This document shows, one piece after another, positions 21,290 to 30,437 of a stretch of 64,000 nt of DNA (positions are counted from its first letter, which is position 1; each line of letters opens with the position of its first letter). This DNA is from Yinghuangia seranimata (GTDB lineage Bacteria > Actinomycetota > Actinomycetes > Streptomycetales > Streptomycetaceae): positions 62,001 to 126,000 of the forward strand of contig NZ_JASAOI010000017.1 in NCBI RefSeq assembly GCF_029953285.1. Reading direction: 5' to 3'. The notes under the pieces are model-generated. The model saw only the letters and a program-made list of their open reading frames with translations, was not told the DNA's origin and did not search any database. The translations under genes were made by a program, and so were the position numbers.

Positions 21290-21624
21290 GCCCGCGAGTC
21301 TACGGCGGTGCCCCACGGGCCTCGGCCGCACCAGAAGCACGGCCCGTGCCCGGCGGGGCCGCCCGGGCGGCCGCTCCGGAGGGACGGCCGCAACGGCGCG
21401 GTCCGTCGAAACGGTTCCCGTCGGGCCCGCTCGCCGCTAGTCTTCGCGCGTAGAACGCACGCCCGGCGCCACGCGTGCTACGCGCGAAGATCACGCACCG
21501 ACTTGTCCGGTTTCCCCGTCGATGTTCCGCCGTGCACGCCTTCTCCGTCGCCCGCGCGACGAACCGCGTTCACCGGCGGTCCCGAGGATTTCGCCCACGC
21601 CCCGCCGACCTCAGGAGGACCCGG
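21290..21624. other. Divergent spacer between rimI and the nuclease gene
   Basis: 335 bases with promoters presumably for both directions. The main visible structure is the inverted repeat at 21442-21489. Confidence 0.5.
21442..21489. repeat. 12-bp perfect inverted repeat in the rimI/nuclease spacer
   Basis: CTTCGCGCGTAG (21442-21453) and its exact reverse complement (21478-21489), 24 bases apart; inner bases CACGC/GCGTG could extend the stem. It could be an operator pair or RNA hairpin; there is no T run. Confidence 0.6.
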
Positions 21625-24180
21625 GTGACACCCCGTCAGCCCAGCAGCACCGGCCCGGACCACGCGTCCGGACCGGCCGACCAGGAAGCGCCCCGGCCGC
21701 GCCGGCGGCGCGTGTCAGGGCCCGTGGCGACGGCCGTCGCCGGGGCCCTCGCCGCGGCCCCGGCGGTCTTCGTCCCGGCGTCCGCCGCGGCCGCGCCGTC
21801 CGCCGACGCGGTGATCGCCGAGGTGTACGGCGGTGGCGGCAACTCCGGCGCCACGCTGACCTCCGACTTCGTCGAGCTGGCCAACCGCGGCGCGGCCGCC
21901 GTCGCGCTCGACGGCTGGAGCGTGCAGTACCTGCCCGCCGCGCCGTCGCCCACGAGCAAGTGGCAGGCCACCCCGCTCACCGGCGCGCTCGCGCCCGGCG
22001 CGCGCTACCTGGTCGGCGAGGGCAAGGGCGCCGGCGGCACGGTCGCACTGCCCACGCCCGACGCGTCCGGCGGCATCAACATGTCCGGCACGGCCGGCAC
22101 CGTCGCGCTCGTCCAGGGCGCCACTCCGCTCACCTGCCTGACCGCCGCGGACTGCCTCGCCGACCCGCGCGTGCGCGACCTGGTCGGCTACGGCACCGCC
22201 GTGGTCCGCGAGGGCACCGGCGCCCCGGCCGCGAGCAACACCACGTCGGTGGCCCGCGGTTCGTCGCTCGCCGACACCGACGACAACAGCGCCGACTTCA
22301 CCGCGGGCGCCCCGACGCCGCTCAACTCACGCGGCGAGGGCCCGACCGACCCGGGCCCCGGGCCCGGCCCCGACCCGACCCCTTCGGCGCGCATCCACGA
22401 CATCCAGGGCCCCGGCCGCCTGTCGCCGCTCAAGGGCACGCAGGTCTCCGCCGTCCCCGGAGTCGTCACCGCGGTGCGCGACTTCGGCTCGGCGCGCGGC
22501 TTCTGGATCCAGGACCCCACCCCGGACAACGACCCGCGCACGTCCGAGGGCGTGTTCGTGTTCACCGGCTCGGCGTCGCCGAAGGCCGCGGTGGGCGACG
22601 CGGTCGCCGTCACCGGCAAGGTCGAGGAGTACTACCCGGGCGCGGCCGACAGCAACGGCCAGTCGCTGACCGAGGTCACGGGCGCCACGTGGACGGTCAA
22701 GTCGTCCGGCAACGCGCTGCCCGCCCCGGTCGTGCTCGACGCGGCCACGGTGCCCGACGCGTACACCGCCGACGGCGACCTGGAGGCGCGCCCGCTCCAG
22801 CCGGACGCCTACGCGCTCGACCTGTACGAGGCGCTGGAAGGCGAGCGCGTGCAGGTCGCCGACACCCGCGTGGTGGGCGCGACCAACACCCACAACGAAC
22901 TGTGGGTGACCGTCGAGCCGACGCAGAACGCGACCGCCGCGGGCGGCACGCTGTACGGCTCGTACGACGCGCAGAACGGCGGCCGCCTCAAGGTCACGTC
23001 GCTGATCCCGTTCGCCGAGCGGCCGTTCCCGGCGGCGAACGTCGGCGACACGCTGTCCGGTGTGACCGCGGGCCCGCTGACGTACGACCAGTTCGGCGGC
23101 TACACGGTGGCCGCGACGACGCTCGGCACGCTCACCTCGGGCGGCCGCGCCGCCGAGGTGACGCGCGGCCAGAAGACCACCGAGCTGGCGATCGCGACGT
23201 ACAACGTCGAGAACCTGTCGCCGAAGGACCCGCAGGCGAAGTTCGACCGCCTCGCGCACGGCGTGGTCGACAACCTCGCGCGGCCCGACATCGTGGCCCT
23301 GGAGGAGATCCAGGACAACAGCGGCCCCACGAACGACGGCACGACCGCCGCCGACCAGACGCTCCAGCAGCTGGTCGACGCGATCGTGGCGGCGGGCGGC
23401 CCGCGCTACGAGTGGCGCTCGATCGACCCGCAGGACGGCAAGGACGGCGGCCAGCCGGGCGGCAACATCCGCACCGCGTTCCTGTTCGACCCGGCACGCG
23501 TGCAGTTCGTCGACCGCGCCGGCGGCGACGCGACCACGCCGGTGGGCGTCCGCAAGTCGTGGCTCGGGCAGACCCAGCTGACCCTGTCGCCGGGCCGCAT
23601 CGCGCCCGCGGACGAGGCGTGGACGAGCAGCCGCAAGCCGCTCGCGGCCGAGTTCCGGTTCCGCGGCCGCACCGTGTTCGTGGTCGCCAACCACTTCAAC
23701 TCCAAGGGCGGCGACCAGGGGCTGGACGCGCGCGTCCAGCCGCCGCAGCGCTCGTCCGAGGTGCAGCGGCTCAAGCAGGCCGCGCTGGTGCACCAGTTCG
23801 TCGGCGACGTCCTCAAGTCCGACCCGCGTGCCAACGTCGTCGTGCTGGGCGACCTGAACGACTTCGGGTTCTCGCCGGCGCTCAAGACGCTCACCGACGA
23901 CGGTTCGCTGCGCGACCTGGTGACGACGCTGCCCGCGAACGAGCAGTACGGGTACGTCTACAACGGCAACAGCCAGGTCCTGGACCACATCCTGACCAGC
24001 CCGCGGGTGACCCGTTTCGAGTACGACATCGTGCACGTGAACGCGGAGTTCGCGGACCAGGCGAGCGACCACGACCCGCAGGTGCTGCGGGTCCGCCCGA
24101 GCACCGGCAGCGACCTCCTCGACTGGATCGACCAGCACGTGTTCGAGGGGTGGCTGGACGGCACCCCGCCGCGTCCCTGA
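21625..24180 (+). CDS. Secreted lamin-tail/endonuclease-exonuclease-phosphatase family nuclease
   Basis: Large exported protein, 851 residues, predicted extracellular DNase or phosphodiesterase. From the GTG at 21625 (AGGAGG six bases upstream) it has a long twin-basic N-region (RRRR) and signal peptide ending near AAAAAP. Then come a lamin-tail domain (about 61-240, VIAEVYGGGGNSG), an OB-fold-like domain (about 256-505, IQGPGRLSPLKG), and the EEP catalytic domain (about 520-840) with every expected motif: ATYNVENL, ALEEIQDN, VANHFNSKGG, VLGDLNDFG and SDHDPQ. Similar to ExeM/NucH-type secreted nucleases. It lies opposite to, and inside, the tsa cluster. Nutrient scavenging or eDNA turnover is inference. 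Confidence 0.9.
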   Translation: MTPRQPSSTGPDHASGPADQEAPRPRRRRVSGPVATAVAGALAAAPAVFVPASAAAAPSADAVIAEVYGGGGNSGATLTSDFVELANRGAAAVALDGWSVQYLPAAPSPTSKWQATPLTGALAPGARYLVGEGKGAGGTVALPTPDASGGINMSGTAGTVALVQGATPLTCLTAADCLADPRVRDLVGYGTAVVREGTGAPAASNTTSVARGSSLADTDDNSADFTAGAPTPLNSRGEGPTDPGPGPGPDPTPSARIHDIQGPGRLSPLKGTQVSAVPGVVTAVRDFGSARGFWIQDPTPDNDPRTSEGVFVFTGSASPKAAVGDAVAVTGKVEEYYPGAADSNGQSLTEVTGATWTVKSSGNALPAPVVLDAATVPDAYTADGDLEARPLQPDAYALDLYEALEGERVQVADTRVVGATNTHNELWVTVEPTQNATAAGGTLYGSYDAQNGGRLKVTSLIPFAERPFPAANVGDTLSGVTAGPLTYDQFGGYTVAATTLGTLTSGGRAAEVTRGQKTTELAIATYNVENLSPKDPQAKFDRLAHGVVDNLARPDIVALEEIQDNSGPTNDGTTAADQTLQQLVDAIVAAGGPRYEWRSIDPQDGKDGGQPGGNIRTAFLFDPARVQFVDRAGGDATTPVGVRKSWLGQTQLTLSPGRIAPADEAWTSSRKPLAAEFRFRGRTVFVVANHFNSKGGDQGLDARVQPPQRSSEVQRLKQAALVHQFVGDVLKSDPRANVVVLGDLNDFGFSPALKTLTDDGSLRDLVTTLPANEQYGYVYNGNSQVLDHILTSPRVTRFEYDIVHVNAEFADQASDHDPQVLRVRPSTGSDLLDWIDQHVFEGWLDGTPPRP

Positions 24181-24294: not shown

Positions 24295-24957
24295 TCAGTT
24301 CGGGGTGACCGGCTTGTAGTTCGCCGGCACCTTGGCGTCCGGCCGGCGCAGGTACAGCGGCTCCGGGGGGAGGAACTCGCCGCCGTTCTTCAGGCGTTCG
24401 ACGGCGAGCTCGGCCAGCGCCGCCGCGTCGACGTGCTCGGGGCCGGCCACCGAGGCGAAGGACTCCGCGTACAGCGCGGCGCCCGCGCCGAAGGCCGGCA
24501 GCCCCGCGACGCCGTCCGCGATGTCTGCGGCGCGGTCGACCCCGGGGCCTTCCAGGCGGGTTCGGGCGTCGGCGTAGCGCGCCCAGTAGACCTCTTTGCG
24601 GCGCGCGTCGGTCGCGGCGACGAACGGGCCCTGGTCCGCGGTGCGGCCGGTGGCGTACGCGAGGGCGTCCAGCGTGCACACGCCGTGCACGGGGATGCCG
24701 AGCGCGTCGCCGAGCGCGCGGGCGGTCATCAGGCCGACGCGCAGGCCGGTGTAGGGCCCCGGGCCGACGCCGACCGCGATGTCGGACAGCTCGGCACGGT
24801 CGCGGCCCGCGTCGGCGAGCGCCGTCACGATCCCCGGTACCAGGAGCTCGCCGTGGCGGCGCGCGTCAATTTGTGTGCAACCGGAGACAACCCGGGATCC
24901 GTCGTGTAGAGCGACGGTCACGGCGGGGGTGGCGGTATCGAAGGCGAGCAGCAGCAC
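24295..24957 (-). CDS. tsaB: tRNA threonylcarbamoyladenosine biosynthesis protein TsaB
   Basis: Non-catalytic ASKHA partner that dimerises with TsaD and is needed for t6A formation. Recognised by LLAFDTATPAVTVALHDG at the N-terminus, the DARRHGELLVPGI segment and the family signature VGVGPGPYTGLRVGLMTARALG. Length 220 with ATG at 24957. In mycobacteria and many actinobacteria tsaB adjoins rimI and tsaD; here the plus-strand nuclease gene has separated them. Confidence 0.95.
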   Translation of the reverse strand: MLLLAFDTATPAVTVALHDGSRVVSGCTQIDARRHGELLVPGIVTALADAGRDRAELSDIAVGVGPGPYTGLRVGLMTARALGDALGIPVHGVCTLDALAYATGRTADQGPFVAATDARRKEVYWARYADARTRLEGPGVDRAADIADGVAGLPAFGAGAALYAESFASVAGPEHVDAAALAELAVERLKNGGEFLPPEPLYLRRPDAKVPANYKPVTPN

Positions 24958-25147: not shown

Positions 25148-26299
25148 ATGGGTCCTGCCGGCACGCCGTTCATGTGGCTGACGGTGCTTCTCCTCGTGGC
25201 CGCACTGGTGTCCACGGTCCTGCTGTGGCCGAAGCTGGCCGGGCGCACGCCGCTGCACTTCGCGGGGCGCACCGGACTCGTGGTCACCGGGCAGCTCTTC
25301 GCGGCGCTCGCCGCGCTGATCATCGTCAACAAGACGCTCGGCCCGTTCTACGTGACCTGGGCCGACCTCTTCGGCCAGGACGTCGGCCAGGTCTCCCCCG
25401 GCACGGCCTCGGGCCCCAACTCGGGCGGCCCCGGACCCGGCGGCGGCAAGACGGCGCCGGGCGGCGGCGGGCACAGCGGCGTGCCGCACAACGGCACACA
25501 GCAGTTCGAGTCGTACTCGGGCCGCTTCGTGAAGACCGACTTCGCCGGCCCCAAGTCGGGCGTGACCGGCGAGGTCGACGTCTACACGCCGCCGCAGTAC
25601 GACGACCCGGCCAACAAGGACCGTGAGTTCCCCGTCGTGATGCTGCTCCACGGGATACCGGGCACCAACTCCGGCTGGGTCGGGGACAAGGCGATGAACG
25701 TCCAGAAGCAGGTCGAGCCGCTGGTCGCGAGCGGCAAGATCCAGCCGTTCATCCTCGTGGTGGCCGACATCGGCAACAACAGCAACAACACCCAGTGCAG
25801 CGACGTGCCCGGCAAGGGCAACCGCGGCACGTGGCTGGCCGACGACGTCCGCACGATGGTCATCGGCAACTTCCGCGCCGCGTCCGACCCCAAGCAGTGG
25901 GCCACACTCGGCTACTCGACCGGCGGCACATGCGCGATCAAGCTCGCGGTGCAGCACCCGCAGGCGTTCCACTACGGCATGAGCATGGCCGCCGACGACT
26001 ACAAGGGCGACGGCTCGGCCTTCAAGGGCGACAACGACCTGCGCAACAAGAACAGCGCGCTGTGGCTGCTCCAGCACCAGAAGCCGGCGCCCGACGTGTC
26101 GCTGTGGCTGATGACCAGCAAGGAGGACGAGGTCGGGCAGACGCGGTTCAGCGACGAGCTCATCCAGGCGGCCAAGGAGGCCGGCGTGCAGGCCGAGGCC
26201 TTCACCGTGCCGCGCGGCGGCCACGTCACGGCGACCTGGCGGCAGCTCGTGGAGCCCGCGTTCGTCTGGCTGAACGGGAAGATGCAGCAGGGCCGCTGA
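25148..26299 (+). CDS. Membrane-anchored esterase (esterase D/antigen 85-like alpha/beta hydrolase)
   Basis: 383 residues. Two N-terminal membrane helices (about 9-26 and 42-62) leave the catalytic domain probably outside the cell. After a Gly/Pro-rich linker the domain has VYTPPQYDD and VVMLLHGIPGTNSGW (oxyanion region), nucleophile Ser257 in LGYSTGG, acid Asp327 in SKEDE and His359 in RGGH, i.e. a complete PF00756-type triad. The family includes esterase D and the mycobacterial antigen 85 acyltransferases. ATG at 25148 follows GAGGAGC. The substrate is unknown; a cell-envelope acyl ester is inferred from topology and from the neighbouring YkuD-like and PBP genes. Confidence 0.87.
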   Translation: MGPAGTPFMWLTVLLLVAALVSTVLLWPKLAGRTPLHFAGRTGLVVTGQLFAALAALIIVNKTLGPFYVTWADLFGQDVGQVSPGTASGPNSGGPGPGGGKTAPGGGGHSGVPHNGTQQFESYSGRFVKTDFAGPKSGVTGEVDVYTPPQYDDPANKDREFPVVMLLHGIPGTNSGWVGDKAMNVQKQVEPLVASGKIQPFILVVADIGNNSNNTQCSDVPGKGNRGTWLADDVRTMVIGNFRAASDPKQWATLGYSTGGTCAIKLAVQHPQAFHYGMSMAADDYKGDGSAFKGDNDLRNKNSALWLLQHQKPAPDVSLWLMTSKEDEVGQTRFSDELIQAAKEAGVQAEAFTVPRGGHVTATWRQLVEPAFVWLNGKMQQGR

Positions 26300-26410
26300 G
26301 CCCGACACGCACGGCACGGCCGCCCGTACTGGCACGATGTGTCCTGACGGGCCGGCTCGGGGGACGACGGCGGGTCCGCGCGGAAGAGGCGGCAGGAGAG
26401 GCACACGGTC

Positions 26411-27076
26411 ATGGCGAATCCGGGGACGACGGTCGCGGGCATCACCATCGCGGCGCTGATCGGCGTGGGCGCGTTGGCGTGGCAGGCGGCCGACACCGCG
26501 CCCAAGGACCGCAGGGCGGGGATAACCGCGTCCGAGTCGCCGTCGCCGTCCGGCAGCGGCGGCCCCGCGCCGACGGCCCCGGCAACGCCGCCTCCGCCGT
26601 CCGTGCCCGCGAACTCGGGCACCGGCCTGCGTGTCGTCTACTCGGTCGGCCAGAACCACGTGTGGCTCGTCGACGCCAACAACGGCGTGCCGCGCGAGTA
26701 CGCGGTGGCGCCCGGCACCGTGCTGACCCCGGTCGGGCAGTACCGCGTGCAGCGGAAGGCCCCCGGCCCGCAGACCGGCGGCGACGGCCTCAAGATCGTC
26801 AACACCGTCGTGTTCGGCACGTCGAACGGCATGACGCTCGGGTTCAGCGGCACCGACACGCCGCTGGCCGACATACTCGCGGCCAACGCGCCGGCGACCC
26901 CGTCCGGGTCGCCCTCGGGCACGGCGACCGGCGGGACCCGCAAGCCGACCGGCACGGCGACCAAGTCGCCGACGAGCACCAAGGCGAAGAACGCGGGCGT
27001 GCGCGAGGCCGTCGACACGAGCAAGGCGATGTACGAGTTCGTCGACATCGGCACGCTGGTCGTCGTCGTCCCGTAG
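26411..27076 (+). CDS. Exported YkuD-like protein lacking the catalytic Cys
   Basis: 221 residues with an N-terminal signal anchor (TTVAGITIAALIGVGALAWQ) and a Pro/Ser/Ala linker. The folded part (LRVVYSVGQNHVWLVDANN ... VLTPVGQYRVQRK ... VFGTSNGMTLGFSG ... AMYEFVDIGTLVVVVP) follows the strand order of L,D-transpeptidase (YkuD) domains, including the closing TLVVVVP strand. However the protein contains no cysteine at all, and the SHGCxR active-site block is absent, so peptidoglycan cross-linking by the usual chemistry is impossible. A binding or scaffold role at the cell wall is inference. It lies between the esterase and PBP genes, same strand. ATG at 26411. Confidence 0.78.
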   Translation: MANPGTTVAGITIAALIGVGALAWQAADTAPKDRRAGITASESPSPSGSGGPAPTAPATPPPPSVPANSGTGLRVVYSVGQNHVWLVDANNGVPREYAVAPGTVLTPVGQYRVQRKAPGPQTGGDGLKIVNTVVFGTSNGMTLGFSGTDTPLADILAANAPATPSGSPSGTATGGTRKPTGTATKSPTSTKAKNAGVREAVDTSKAMYEFVDIGTLVVVVP

Positions 27077-27334: not shown

Positions 27335-29722
27335 GTGGCAGACCAGACCCCGGCCCCCGGCGGACCGGCGTTCGGGCCGCCGTCCGCCCCCGCCGTCTCG
27401 GTCCCGCGTCGCCGCCCCGTCATCGACTACCCGCGCGCCGGCAGGGGCCCGCTCCGCCGCTGGGTGCCGTCGTTCAAGCACCTGGTCACGCTGAGCCTGT
27501 TCCTGCTCGGCCTGCTGTTCATGGGCGTCGGCGTCGTGTACGCGATGACCCCGATCCCGTCGCAGGCCAACGCCGACGCCACCAAGCAGAGCAACATCTA
27601 CCAGTGGAGCGACGGCACCGAGATCGTCCGCACCGGCTCCACCAACCGGCAGAACGTGCCGCTGTCGTCGGTGCCCCTCGAGGTCCAGCGCGCCTTCCTC
27701 GCCGCCGAGAACCGCAGCTTCTACTCCGACTCCGGCATCTCCGTCACCGGCACCCTGCGCGGCCTGTTCAACTCGGTCACCAGCGGCGGCTCGTCGCTGC
27801 AGGGCGGCTCGACGATCACCCAGCAGTACGTCAAGAACCTGTACCTGACGCAGGAGCAGACGGTCTCGCGGAAGCTCAAGGAAGCGATCATCGCGACCAA
27901 GATGGACCGCACGGAGTCGAAGGACGACATCCTCGAGGGCTACCTCAACACCGTCTACTTCGGCCGCGGCGCGTACGGCATCGAGGCCGCCGCGCAGGCC
28001 TACTACGGCGTCCCCGCGACGCAGCTGAACGCCGAGCAGGGCGCCTACCTCGCCGCGCTCATCAACGCGCCCGGCGCGTACGACGTCAAGAACACCACCG
28101 AGCGCGCCCGCGAACGCGCCGTCGCGCGCTGGAACTACGTGCTCGACGGCATGGTGAAGTCCAAGTGGCTGACCCCCGAGCGGCGCGCCGCGATGGCCTT
28201 CCCCGAGCCGGTCGACCCCAAGACCGCGCCCGGCCTGCAGGGCATGAACGGCTACCTCGTCGAGACCGCCAAGCAGTACCTGCTCGACCACGACGTGCTC
28301 ACCGAGCAGGAACTGGCGGCCGGCGGCTACACGATCAAGACGACGTTCGACAAGGACAAGACGCAGGCGATGTACGACAGCGTGCAGAAGACGCTGTCGG
28401 ACAACCTCGACACCGCGAACAACAGCAAGGACGTCGGCGTGCGCGTCGGCGGCGCGTCCGTCGACGTGGCCACCGGCAAGATCGTCGCCATCTACGGCGG
28501 CCCCGACTACGTCAAGCAGTACGTCAACAGCGCGACCCGGCGCGACATCCAGGTCGGCTCGACGTTCAAGCCGTTCGTGCTCGCCTCCGGCCTGCGCGAC
28601 GGCGCGCAGGACGGCAAGTCGCGCGTCTCCGTGACCCCGCAGAGCCGCTACAACGGCGACGACGACGTGACGATCACCTACCCGAACGGCAAGCCCGTCC
28701 TGAACGGCGGCAAGCCGTGGCAGCCCGGCAACGAGGACGGCCGCAGCTACGGCGACATCACCCTCAAGCAGGCCATGCAGGTGTCGTCCAACACCGTCTA
28801 CTCGCAGCTCGGCGTCGACGTCGGCATGGACCGCGTCGTCGAGGACACCGTCCGCGCGGGGATCCCGAAGGACACCCCCGGGCTCGGCACGAACCCGGCC
28901 ACGACGCTCGGCACCGCGACGCCCAGCGCGCTCGACATGGCCGGCGCGTACGCCACCTTCGCCCGGCAGGGCACCCGCGTCGAGCCGTACTCGGTCGAGA
29001 AGCTGACGCACAACGGCGACGACGTCGACCTGCCGTCGCACGACGGCGAGAGCGCGTTCGACCCCGACGTCGCCAACAACGTCACCGGCGTGCTCGAAGG
29101 CGTCGTCGACAACGGCACCGGACGCCGCGCCCAGGCGCTCGGCCGCCCCGCGGCCGGCAAGACCGGCACCACCGACGACAACAAGTCCGCGTGGTTCGCC
29201 GGGTACACGCCGCAGCTGTCGACGACGATCGGCATGTTCCGGCAGAACCCGACGACCAACGCGTTCGAGTCGATGAGCGGCACGGCCGGGCAGTCCCGCG
29301 TCGACGGCGGCAACCTGCCGACGCGCATGTGGACCACGTACATGAAGACCGCCCTGCAGGGCGAGCCGACGGTCGACTTCGCGACCCCGTCCGACTCCGA
29401 CAACGGCGACCTGCCGACCGAGACGCCGACGACCGCGCCGCCGACCACCACCGCTCCCCCGACCACGGCGCCGCCGACGACCGACGCCCCGACGACGGCC
29501 CCGCCGACCACGGACGACCCGACCACGCCCCCGACCAGCACGCCGCCCACGACCCGGACGCCGACGAAGCGGCCGCCGACGACCGCACCTCCGACGACGG
29601 GGGCGCCCAGCACCTCCGGCGGCACGTCTGACGGAACATCGGGCGACACGTCGGGCGGAACGTCCAGCCAGACGGAACGCAAGGCCGCACGGGAGTCCGA
29701 GCGCGCGCTCGTGCCGCGCTAG
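27335..29722 (+). CDS. Class A penicillin-binding protein (transglycosylase/transpeptidase)
   Basis: Bifunctional peptidoglycan synthase of 795 residues. A membrane anchor (about 46-70) follows a cytoplasmic N-terminus. The glycosyltransferase 51 domain has catalytic Glu125 in AAENRSFY, QGGSTITQQYVKN and EGYLNTVYFGRGAYGIE. The transpeptidase domain has Ser409-Thr-Phe-Lys412 (SxxK), SSN at 484-486 and KTG at 609-611, so both activities look intact. From about 705 the tail is almost only Thr and Pro repeats followed by Ser/Gly, typical of an extended wall-spanning segment. GTG at 27335. Its 3' end faces tsaE with a 14-base gap. No PASTA domains. Confidence 0.94.
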   Translation: MADQTPAPGGPAFGPPSAPAVSVPRRRPVIDYPRAGRGPLRRWVPSFKHLVTLSLFLLGLLFMGVGVVYAMTPIPSQANADATKQSNIYQWSDGTEIVRTGSTNRQNVPLSSVPLEVQRAFLAAENRSFYSDSGISVTGTLRGLFNSVTSGGSSLQGGSTITQQYVKNLYLTQEQTVSRKLKEAIIATKMDRTESKDDILEGYLNTVYFGRGAYGIEAAAQAYYGVPATQLNAEQGAYLAALINAPGAYDVKNTTERARERAVARWNYVLDGMVKSKWLTPERRAAMAFPEPVDPKTAPGLQGMNGYLVETAKQYLLDHDVLTEQELAAGGYTIKTTFDKDKTQAMYDSVQKTLSDNLDTANNSKDVGVRVGGASVDVATGKIVAIYGGPDYVKQYVNSATRRDIQVGSTFKPFVLASGLRDGAQDGKSRVSVTPQSRYNGDDDVTITYPNGKPVLNGGKPWQPGNEDGRSYGDITLKQAMQVSSNTVYSQLGVDVGMDRVVEDTVRAGIPKDTPGLGTNPATTLGTATPSALDMAGAYATFARQGTRVEPYSVEKLTHNGDDVDLPSHDGESAFDPDVANNVTGVLEGVVDNGTGRRAQALGRPAAGKTGTTDDNKSAWFAGYTPQLSTTIGMFRQNPTTNAFESMSGTAGQSRVDGGNLPTRMWTTYMKTALQGEPTVDFATPSDSDNGDLPTETPTTAPPTTTAPPTTAPPTTDAPTTAPPTTDDPTTPPTSTPPTTRTPTKRPPTTAPPTTGAPSTSGGTSDGTSGDTSGGTSSQTERKAARESERALVPR

Positions 29723-29736
29723 CGGACCGGCGCGGT

Positions 29737-30285
29737 TCAGTCCTCGGCGAGCGCCTTCGCGACGTCGACACCCGACCAGCGCGCGCCGACGCCGATCAGC
29801 GTCACCGTGCGCACGTCGTCGGCGCCGTCCGGCGCGTCGTCCGCTTCCGCGCGCGAGATCAGCACCTGCAGGCGGTCCTCGGCGAGCTCCTCGACCTTGC
29901 CCTCGCCCCACTCGACGACCGTCACCGATTCGTCCAGCGACGCGTCAAGGTCCAGGTCGTCGACCTCGCTGACCACGTCCGAGCCGCCGCCGAGCCGGTA
30001 CGCGTCCACGTGGACCAGCGCCGGGCCGCCCACCAGCGACGGATGCACCCGCGCGATCACGAACGTCGGCGAGGTCACCGCGCCGCGTACCCCCAGCCCC
30101 GCGCCCAGGCCCTGCGTCAGCGTCGTCTTGCCCGCCCCCAAGCCGCCGGACAGCAGCACCAAATCGCCGCCGCGCAGCAGCCCCGCGAGCCGCCGACCGA
30201 GGTCGCGCATCCCCTCGCCGGTCGCGACCGACACCCGCGTGGCGTCCGCCGACGCCACCGTTTCCTGACCCTGCACGCGCAACAT
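29737..30285 (-). CDS. tsaE: tRNA t6A biosynthesis ATPase TsaE
   Basis: P-loop ATPase that activates the TsaB-TsaD complex. Walker A is SGGLGAGKTTL with Lys53 and Thr54, followed by the family blocks VTSPTFVIARVH and HVDAYRL and VVEWGE. Length 182 from the ATG at 30285; the frame is open to 30336 but homologues begin near here. Normally adjacent to tsaB; the PBP/esterase block separates them here. Its order with alr and the alpha/beta hydrolase upstream matches other Streptomyces-type genomes. Confidence 0.94.
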   Translation of the reverse strand: MLRVQGQETVASADATRVSVATGEGMRDLGRRLAGLLRGGDLVLLSGGLGAGKTTLTQGLGAGLGVRGAVTSPTFVIARVHPSLVGGPALVHVDAYRLGGGSDVVSEVDDLDLDASLDESVTVVEWGEGKVEELAEDRLQVLISRAEADDAPDGADDVRTVTLIGVGARWSGVDVAKALAED

Positions 30286-30330
30286 CCCCACACGCCTGAA
30301 CGACAGTCGAACTTCCGGACCCGAACCTAC

Positions 30331-30437
30331 GCCCAACGAGCTTCACCCGGACGCGTCACGGCCCGCCCTTTACAGACCCGATCCCCGGCCCACCGGGCGT
30401 CACCCGGAGGTGTCACGGCCGGTCCCCTGCGGACCCG
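30331..30437. repeat. Imperfect 50-bp direct duplication across the hydrolase stop codon
   Basis: Copy A 30331-30380 and copy B 30388-30437 are identical at 39 of 50 positions with a period of 57 bases (19 codons). Copy B includes the last codons of the alpha/beta hydrolase, copy A lies beyond its stop, as if a stop arose in a duplicated tail. Confidence 0.7.

Follow-up and report, generated by a model that had tools for sequence, protein, structure and literature searches.

Genes and features of the locus

The window analysed here, a 64,000-nucleotide stretch of the Yinghuangia seranimata genome (contig NZ_JASAOI010000017.1), carries at positions 26411-27076 a gene for a YkuD-like protein, very probably a conserved domain of L,D-transpeptidase type that is catalytically dead; we refer to it as a pseudo-transpeptidase. 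An earlier note on this DNA had placed the gene correctly and had tentatively grouped it with its two neighbours, an esterase and a class A penicillin-binding protein (PBP), into a single envelope-modifying unit. All three genes lie on the same strand, with intergenic gaps of 111 bp (esterase to YkuD-like gene) and 258 bp (YkuD-like gene to PBP). The features of the locus are as follows.

24295-24957, minus strand: tsaB, the conserved left neighbour of the pseudo-transpeptidase gene
25148-26299, plus strand: PF00756 esterase, predicted to be membrane-anchored, a lineage-specific neighbour
26326-26342, plus strand: promoter-like block GTACTGGCACGATGTGT, located by aligning loci with and without the esterase
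26411-27076, plus strand: pseudo-L,D-transpeptidase of 221 amino acids, with a hydrophobic N-terminal anchor, a Ser/Pro/Thr-rich linker and a predicted YkuD-fold domain lacking the catalytic Cys and His
26783-26785, plus strand: Asp125 codon, placed by alignment columns
26846-26848, plus strand: Ser146 codon (GFH changed to GFS; column of the old catalytic His), placed by alignment columns
26996-26998, plus strand: Gly196 codon (column of the old catalytic Cys), placed by alignment columns
27002-27004, plus strand: Arg198 codon, the groove arginine at Cys position +2, placed by alignment columns; its role is taken from an excerpt of PMC10653827
27335-29722, plus strand: class A PBP, observed as a neighbour only in genera g1 and g4
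29737-30336, minus strand: tsaE, the conserved right neighbour, convergent with the pseudo-transpeptidase gene

Predicted fold of the cysteine-free protein

The translated product of 26411-27076 contains zero cysteines, as the earlier note had stated, and its N-terminus is hydrophobic by hydropathy. In Pfam, the YkuD family (PF03734) matched it below threshold (17.1 bits, curated cut-off 23.4), and when 30 relatives were compared with PF03734, six matched at E<=1, the best at 0.0047. Two copies from other genomes of the same order exceeded the cut-off once neighbouring frame segments were added (24.3 bits in G440 and 29.2 in G437). The protein had no match in PHROGs at E<=0.1 and one chance-level match only in NCBIfam (E 0.092), and a single-protein search of the genome contigs found no relative of it. 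Searching the PDB sequences with a profile at E<=1 likewise returned no true relative (the matches were an antibody, a capsid protein and ribosomal L9), and so the YkuD family was recognised only by comparison of folds.

An AlphaFold model computed with 30 relatives had a mean predicted local distance difference test score (pLDDT) of 78.5, with 10-residue block means of 91-97 over residues 61-160, of 71, 60 and 56 over residues 161-190, and of 87-98 over residues 191-221. The top PDB matches of this model in Foldseek were L,D-transpeptidases (1zat, E 2.9e-6, and 2hkl), and VIA-align returned Z scores of 15.7 to 5bmq (root-mean-square deviation 2.2, 121 aligned residues), 15.2 to 4lpq and 14.5 to YkuD of B. 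subtilis (1y7m). Among the 50 VIA-align entries shown, the lowest of which had a Z score of 11.3, 45 bore the title L,D-transpeptidase, Ldt or YkuD, and the remaining five were 1zat, 4xxt, Bd1075 (7o21), Csd6 (4xzz) and Pgp2 (6xj7). As modelled, residues ~60-221 of the product form a YkuD fold, which bears out what the earlier note had proposed for this protein; a structure unlike YkuD, which the note had named as a refutation, is thus contradicted by the model. Residues 150-193 (window 26858-26989) make up a low-complexity insert rich in Ser, Thr and Pro at the place of the former catalytic loop, inside which the low-confidence residues 161-190 fall; the window's genus has the longest form of this insert and genus g4 a shorter one, and the other genera aligned have a much shorter loop.

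Catalytic columns and conserved residues

We aligned 150 distinct domain sequences, 113 from within the order (hereafter in-order) and 37 from outside it. Matches below 40 bits were excluded beforehand, including an eCIS-type YkuD protein of the window's own genome (L002, described below), and loci L156-L215 were omitted from this set; the loci read were mostly the best-scoring ones, and low-scoring genomes were added to counter this bias. A separate collection of 80 named loci, the best 80 of 315 relatives, was taken with flanks of up to 4 kb. Their titles were all Streptomyces, except for one Microtetraspora glauca and one [Kitasatospora] papulosa, and they have this gene at the corresponding locus, from which we infer that the coded order and family of our samples are Streptomycetales and Streptomycetaceae. 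A further 20 in-order copies, chosen among weak or extra ones, were read by eye, and so the residue-level data come from 113 distinct in-order sequences, the 80 named loci and these 20 copies, a subset of the matching genomes.

The column of the catalytic His held His in 37/37 outside sequences, and Ser (93), Asp (8), Ala (5), Glu (4) or Gly (3) in the 113 in-order ones. Similarly, the column of the catalytic Cys held Cys in 37/37 outside sequences, and Gly (94), Ala (18) or Asp (1) within the order. The Arg198 column was Arg in all 113 in-order sequences and in 36/37 of those outside; this groove arginine, which is exposed in many L,D-transpeptidases, is equivalent to Ala145 of DpaA, that is, to Cys143+2 (PMC10653827; this and the other papers are cited from excerpts). 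The Asp125 column was Asp in 112/113 in-order sequences versus 5/37 outside, and is, in these alignments, a constraint gained in the dead group. All four residues (D125, S146, G196 and R198) were present in 80/80 named loci, and none of the 20 further copies had a Cys at the old Cys motif, with Arg198 kept in 19 of them. Cysteines did occur elsewhere in the protein, in 3/113 in-order sequences and in 9/80 named loci (in the latter always at residue 20, within the anchor), so that the earlier note's "no cysteine anywhere", true of the window's protein, is not universal among its relatives.

These columns bear on the possibility that the protein is still a YkuD-fold enzyme, working through a different catalytic residue such as Ser146 or the newly conserved Asp125. 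There is precedent in a YafK protein that hydrolyses beta-lactams via a serine, the cysteine not being required (PMC13400389), and the near-invariance of Asp125 and the presence of Ser146 in every named locus would fit such an enzyme. However, the Ser146 column varies over the order, the Asp125 loop is absent in a few extra copies and a conserved His is missing from the old site, and we consider a replaced catalytic residue unlikely; serine chemistry in particular, which the YafK report had prompted us to consider, is not favoured, as Ser146 is variable across the order.

The same alignments can be read as those of a purely structural or partner-binding module, serving for instance a divisome or hyphal-tip protein, for which the groove would be irrelevant. 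The catalytic columns do drift in kind (S, D, A, E and G in one; G, A and D in the other), the strand cores SG.G.RVVYS...VWLV and the C-terminal strand hardly vary, and one extra copy has lost Arg198. Yet retention of the groove arginine throughout the 113 in-order sequences and the 80 named loci, despite the loss of its catalytic neighbours, makes it doubtful that the groove has no part in the function.

Besides the pseudo-transpeptidase, 10 further YkuD matches in the window's genome exceed the Pfam cut-off, and these proteins could, as far as their domains indicate, do the chemistry; the catalytic motif was read in L002, as SHGCVHL. The L002 gene (contig C41, 1318-2259, minus strand) fuses an eCIS_core domain (PF13699, 6.8e-30) to YkuD (1.6e-11), and its product may be a cargo, acting on peptidoglycan, of an extracellular contractile injection system. 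Several genera also have, next to alr and a few kb from the pseudo-transpeptidase, an intact L,D-transpeptidase that belongs to a different subfamily (GS[HY]GCVN; L118, L119, L128, L129, L133 and L134).

Distribution, descent and selection

Counting the window's own genome, the cysteine-free protein was present in 3/3 genomes of the genus, in 150/150 genomes of the family sample (17/17 genera) and in 196/197 genomes of the order sample (7/7 genera, with 180 of the 197 genomes belonging to one genus); the single genome that lacked it is 81% complete. A homologue in every one of 150 same-family genomes places the cysteine-free protein beyond chance. Matches were found in 89/296 genomes of the class sample, 28 of the 89 being in-order, and in 27/296 genomes of the phylum sample, 9 of the 27 being in-order. 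Among the matches listed in the family, order and further searches there was no internal stop.

Many genomes of genus g9 have a second cysteine-free match away from tsaB, and in genome G123 there are three matches, of which two lie in tandem. Two such second copies lie beside purine genes (L124) and beside genes with no obvious role in the wall (L126); with gene limits drawn by a rough rule on GC content at third codon positions and names given by eye, these two neighbourhoods offered no functional hint.

We built a tree over 98 columns from 78 rows, namely all 37 outside sequences and 41 in-order ones picked for spread out of the 113, having removed the catalytic segment beforehand. The in-order rows fell on one side of a single branch with support of 98/91, and 98% of the bootstrap trees agreed. 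Since the tree is unrooted, the case for a single loss within the order depends as well on the Cys form being general for the YkuD fold. In L098 of family f71, the deepest in-order row, the two catalytic sites are Glu and Asp and VRQ is kept after them, a pattern that fits a loss preceding the split of family f71. In addition, in G647, a genome outside the order, a Cys-bearing homologue (L143) lies between rimI and an abh-alr pair, and this related locus supports descent. The catalytic residues were thus probably lost a single time, near the base of the order.

In six pairs of close relatives, the ratio of nonsynonymous to synonymous substitution rates (dN/dS) of the pseudo-transpeptidase gene was 0.49, 0.22, 0.32, 0.33, 0.32 and 0.24 (0.29 in a pair of esterases), and the gene is kept under purifying selection. 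A decaying relic without function could explain the missing catalytic residues, the low-complexity insert of the window's genus and a frame-split extra copy in G592, and yet it is extremely improbable in view of these ratios, the retention of the gene in all but one genome of the order sample and the lack of a stop among the matches listed; for the tsaB-linked gene, retention and dN/dS contradict it.

Neighbouring genes

The gene at 25148-26299 encodes a 383-amino acid protein that has two hydrophobic stretches at its N-terminus (by hydropathy) and matches PF00756, the putative-esterase family, with 58.7 bits (E 9.6e-16; cut-off 22). Read by eye, its sequence offers a Ser/Asp/His set, with Ser257 in GYSTGG (a GxSxG-type motif), an acid near Asp327 and His359 in GGH. 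Of its matches to PDB sequences, 15 had E<=1e-3 and were of ferulic-acid, CE1, isoamylase-N and similar types, antigen 85 being named in 0/15. The earlier note's hydrolase, with a triad as far as one can be read by eye, is therefore upheld as a PF00756 protein, with "antigen-85-like" fitting at the level of the Pfam family only. The gene at 27335-29722 encodes, as the earlier note had it, a class A PBP, and a bifunctional one, with a transglycosylase domain (PF00912, 3.7e-59) and a transpeptidase domain (PF00905, 8.5e-30).

We compared the window's genes with the surroundings (~20 kb) of 28 in-order copies in 26 genomes (totals of 27 include the window). A copy adjacent to tsaB was present in 26/26 genomes with tsaE on its opposite side, at ~3 kb or less in 25 and at 8 kb in one; the gene was reversed in orientation in one genome, and the remaining two of the 28 copies were second copies elsewhere. 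The named loci agreed, with tsaB matched in 80 and tsaE in 79. The esterase, on the other hand, adjoined the YkuD-like gene in 2/27 genomes (the window and G001) and not in the third congener, G002, and the PBP adjoined it in 6/27 (the window, G001, G002, G005, G020 and G030), which belong to two genera, g1 and g4. Within the flanks of the 80 named loci, the esterase and the PBP each occurred in 0/80. Searched genome-wide at E<=1e-10, 22/26 genomes had a relative of the esterase, at <=39% identity outside the window's genus, and G009, G013, G016 and G437 had none, all four keeping the YkuD-like gene. G002, which also keeps it, had a best esterase-like match genome-wide of 29% identity.

In G002, where it directly adjoins tsaB, the YkuD-like gene is preceded by the block GTACTGGCACGATGTG; in the window and G001, with the esterase separating the two genes, this upstream block is nearly identical. 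As the block is unchanged with or without the esterase, the simplest reading is that the esterase was inserted upstream of a gene that was already independent, and that it is a recent neighbour and not a partner of the pseudo-transpeptidase. Between rimI and tsaB the window also carries a large gene (21475-24180, plus strand) for an exonuclease/endonuclease-family protein with a lamin tail domain (PF03372, PF00932), which was matched only in the sister genome G001 among the loci compared; with the esterase, this would make two lineage-specific genes gained at the locus.

These comparisons weigh on the idea from the earlier note that the three genes form an envelope-modifying unit in which the YkuD-like protein, bound to peptidoglycan, would position the esterase or the PBP; a lack of co-occurrence in other genomes was a refutation that the note itself had named, and for the esterase the unit is contradicted. 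Their common strand, the short gaps and the predicted envelope domains of all three products would suit such a unit, as would the PBP neighbour in 6/6 genomes of g1 and g4 whose surroundings were seen. Nevertheless, the rarity of both neighbours beside the gene, the G002 locus that does without the esterase and the upstream block retained either way make the unit very unlikely, and on synteny, co-occurrence and this block we ruled it out, though a loose functional link between the pseudo-transpeptidase and the PBP could exist within g1 and g4.

A CTGCTAC block was found ~52 bp upstream of the gene in 67/80 named loci (L246-L325), and is perhaps the -10 region of the pseudo-transpeptidase promoter. 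Simple regular expressions for the consensus of seven types of sigma-factor motif matched upstream in 0/80 named loci, and thus gave no clue to a regulon. In S. coelicolor, tsaE is SCO4747 and tsaB is SCO4750 (PMC4932002), and so by its position between them the S. coelicolor copy should be SCO4748 or SCO4749, the latter being named among the genes affected by loss of RNase III (PMC3765725). A paper on the S. coelicolor sigma-E regulon describes sco0736, sco3194 and sco4934 as L,D-transpeptidases, and a word search for "sco47" in the available part of that paper had no match (PMC6767563).

Proposed role

Taking these data together, we think it moderately probable that the 26411-27076 product is a membrane-anchored pseudo-L,D-transpeptidase, which lost its chemistry once, has been kept at the tsaB/pseudo-transpeptidase/tsaE locus, and serves for non-catalytic docking of stem peptides or of a partner. 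In such a mechanism, the YkuD-like domain would face the cell wall from the membrane surface, the old groove would dock stem peptides or a partner cross-linking enzyme via the retained Arg198, and the protein would have a non-catalytic part in peptidoglycan cross-linking, as its anchor, sensor or regulator; the two adjoining genes, for the esterase and the class A PBP, would be later arrivals outside this machine. The binding itself, whether of stem peptides or of a wall enzyme, we advance more tentatively, on the strength of the alignments and the model, and the non-catalytic binding role suggested in the earlier note seems reasonable on the same grounds. More tentative again is a wider proposal, that of an order-wide pseudoenzyme fixed in the common ancestor, which would read or shield stem peptides or restrain the active cross-linkers, with Arg198 and Asp125 as its working residues.

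Several points weigh against the docking proposal. Binding is deduced from a fold and one residue, the dead domain might carry out some other chemistry, and the groove loop has been remodelled, with the S/T/P-rich insert of the window's genus modelled at low confidence. In addition, a divergent extra copy (L326, in G070) lacks Arg198, and its old His column reads Cys (GFC), the Asp125 loop is absent in L327-L329, and one G592 copy is split across two frames. As to descent, the tree rests on 98 columns (few, as the tool warned) and is unrooted, and shared synteny was seen in 1/12 outside loci fetched, with tsaB and tsaE unmatched there. The position between tsaB and tsaE may, moreover, reflect simple inheritance. 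Conservation of Arg198 and Asp125 is accordingly a pair of strong rules and not of absolutes, the exceptions being divergent extra copies or weak matches. The copies L326-L329 (in G070, G120, G090 and G096), all from genus g6, are strongly diverged extra copies that possibly represent a second round of change.

A pseudoenzyme that stems from a wall enzyme can have a regulatory role. As almost all the genomes sampled in this order, one of antibiotic producers, have the gene, it is probably part of core streptomycete envelope biology. The case also cautions against taking YkuD-like matches in streptomycete genomes for active cross-linkers unless their Cys has been checked.

Comparison with known systems

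Searches of the open-licence literature yielded, among the papers listed, no description of a conserved cysteine-free YkuD family in streptomycetes or of any conserved dead L,D-transpeptidase, and in the available part of a 2025 review of L,D-transpeptidases word searches for "Streptomyces" and "pseudoenzyme" had no match (PMC12729407). Among known proteins, a precedent for a dead wall-hydrolase homologue is DipM of Caulobacter, which is of the LytM type and has a fold unrelated to that of YkuD. DipM is important for wall remodelling (PMC6373972).

Proteins with a YkuD fold and altered chemistry, as proposed for the pseudo-transpeptidase, are found in the DpaA/LdtF and YafK-type group, represented by E. 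coli DpaA and Legionella Lpg1514 (PMC10653827, PMC13400389). Unlike the pseudo-transpeptidase, these proteins keep the Cys, and DpaA has an Ala at the position of the arginine.

The YkuD-type L,D-transpeptidases (PF03734), among them 5bmq of Stackebrandtia nassauensis, 4lpq of Xylanimonas and 1y7m of B. subtilis, share the predicted fold of the pseudo-transpeptidase, which differs from them in lacking the catalytic Cys and His, in its shortened or replaced catalytic loop and in its Pfam score below the curated cut-off. The closest Cys-bearing relatives by profile, with E values down to 1e-34, are the actinobacterial homologues, of which 37 were read (motifs GFH.IP and GC[IV]RQ). These begin with the same P..SG.G.R.VY...VWLV as the pseudo-transpeptidase, and the Arg at Cys+2 and the C-terminal strand are common to both; however, they keep the catalytic pair, the two tested (from G647 and G659) score over the Pfam cut-off, and they are patchy in the class.

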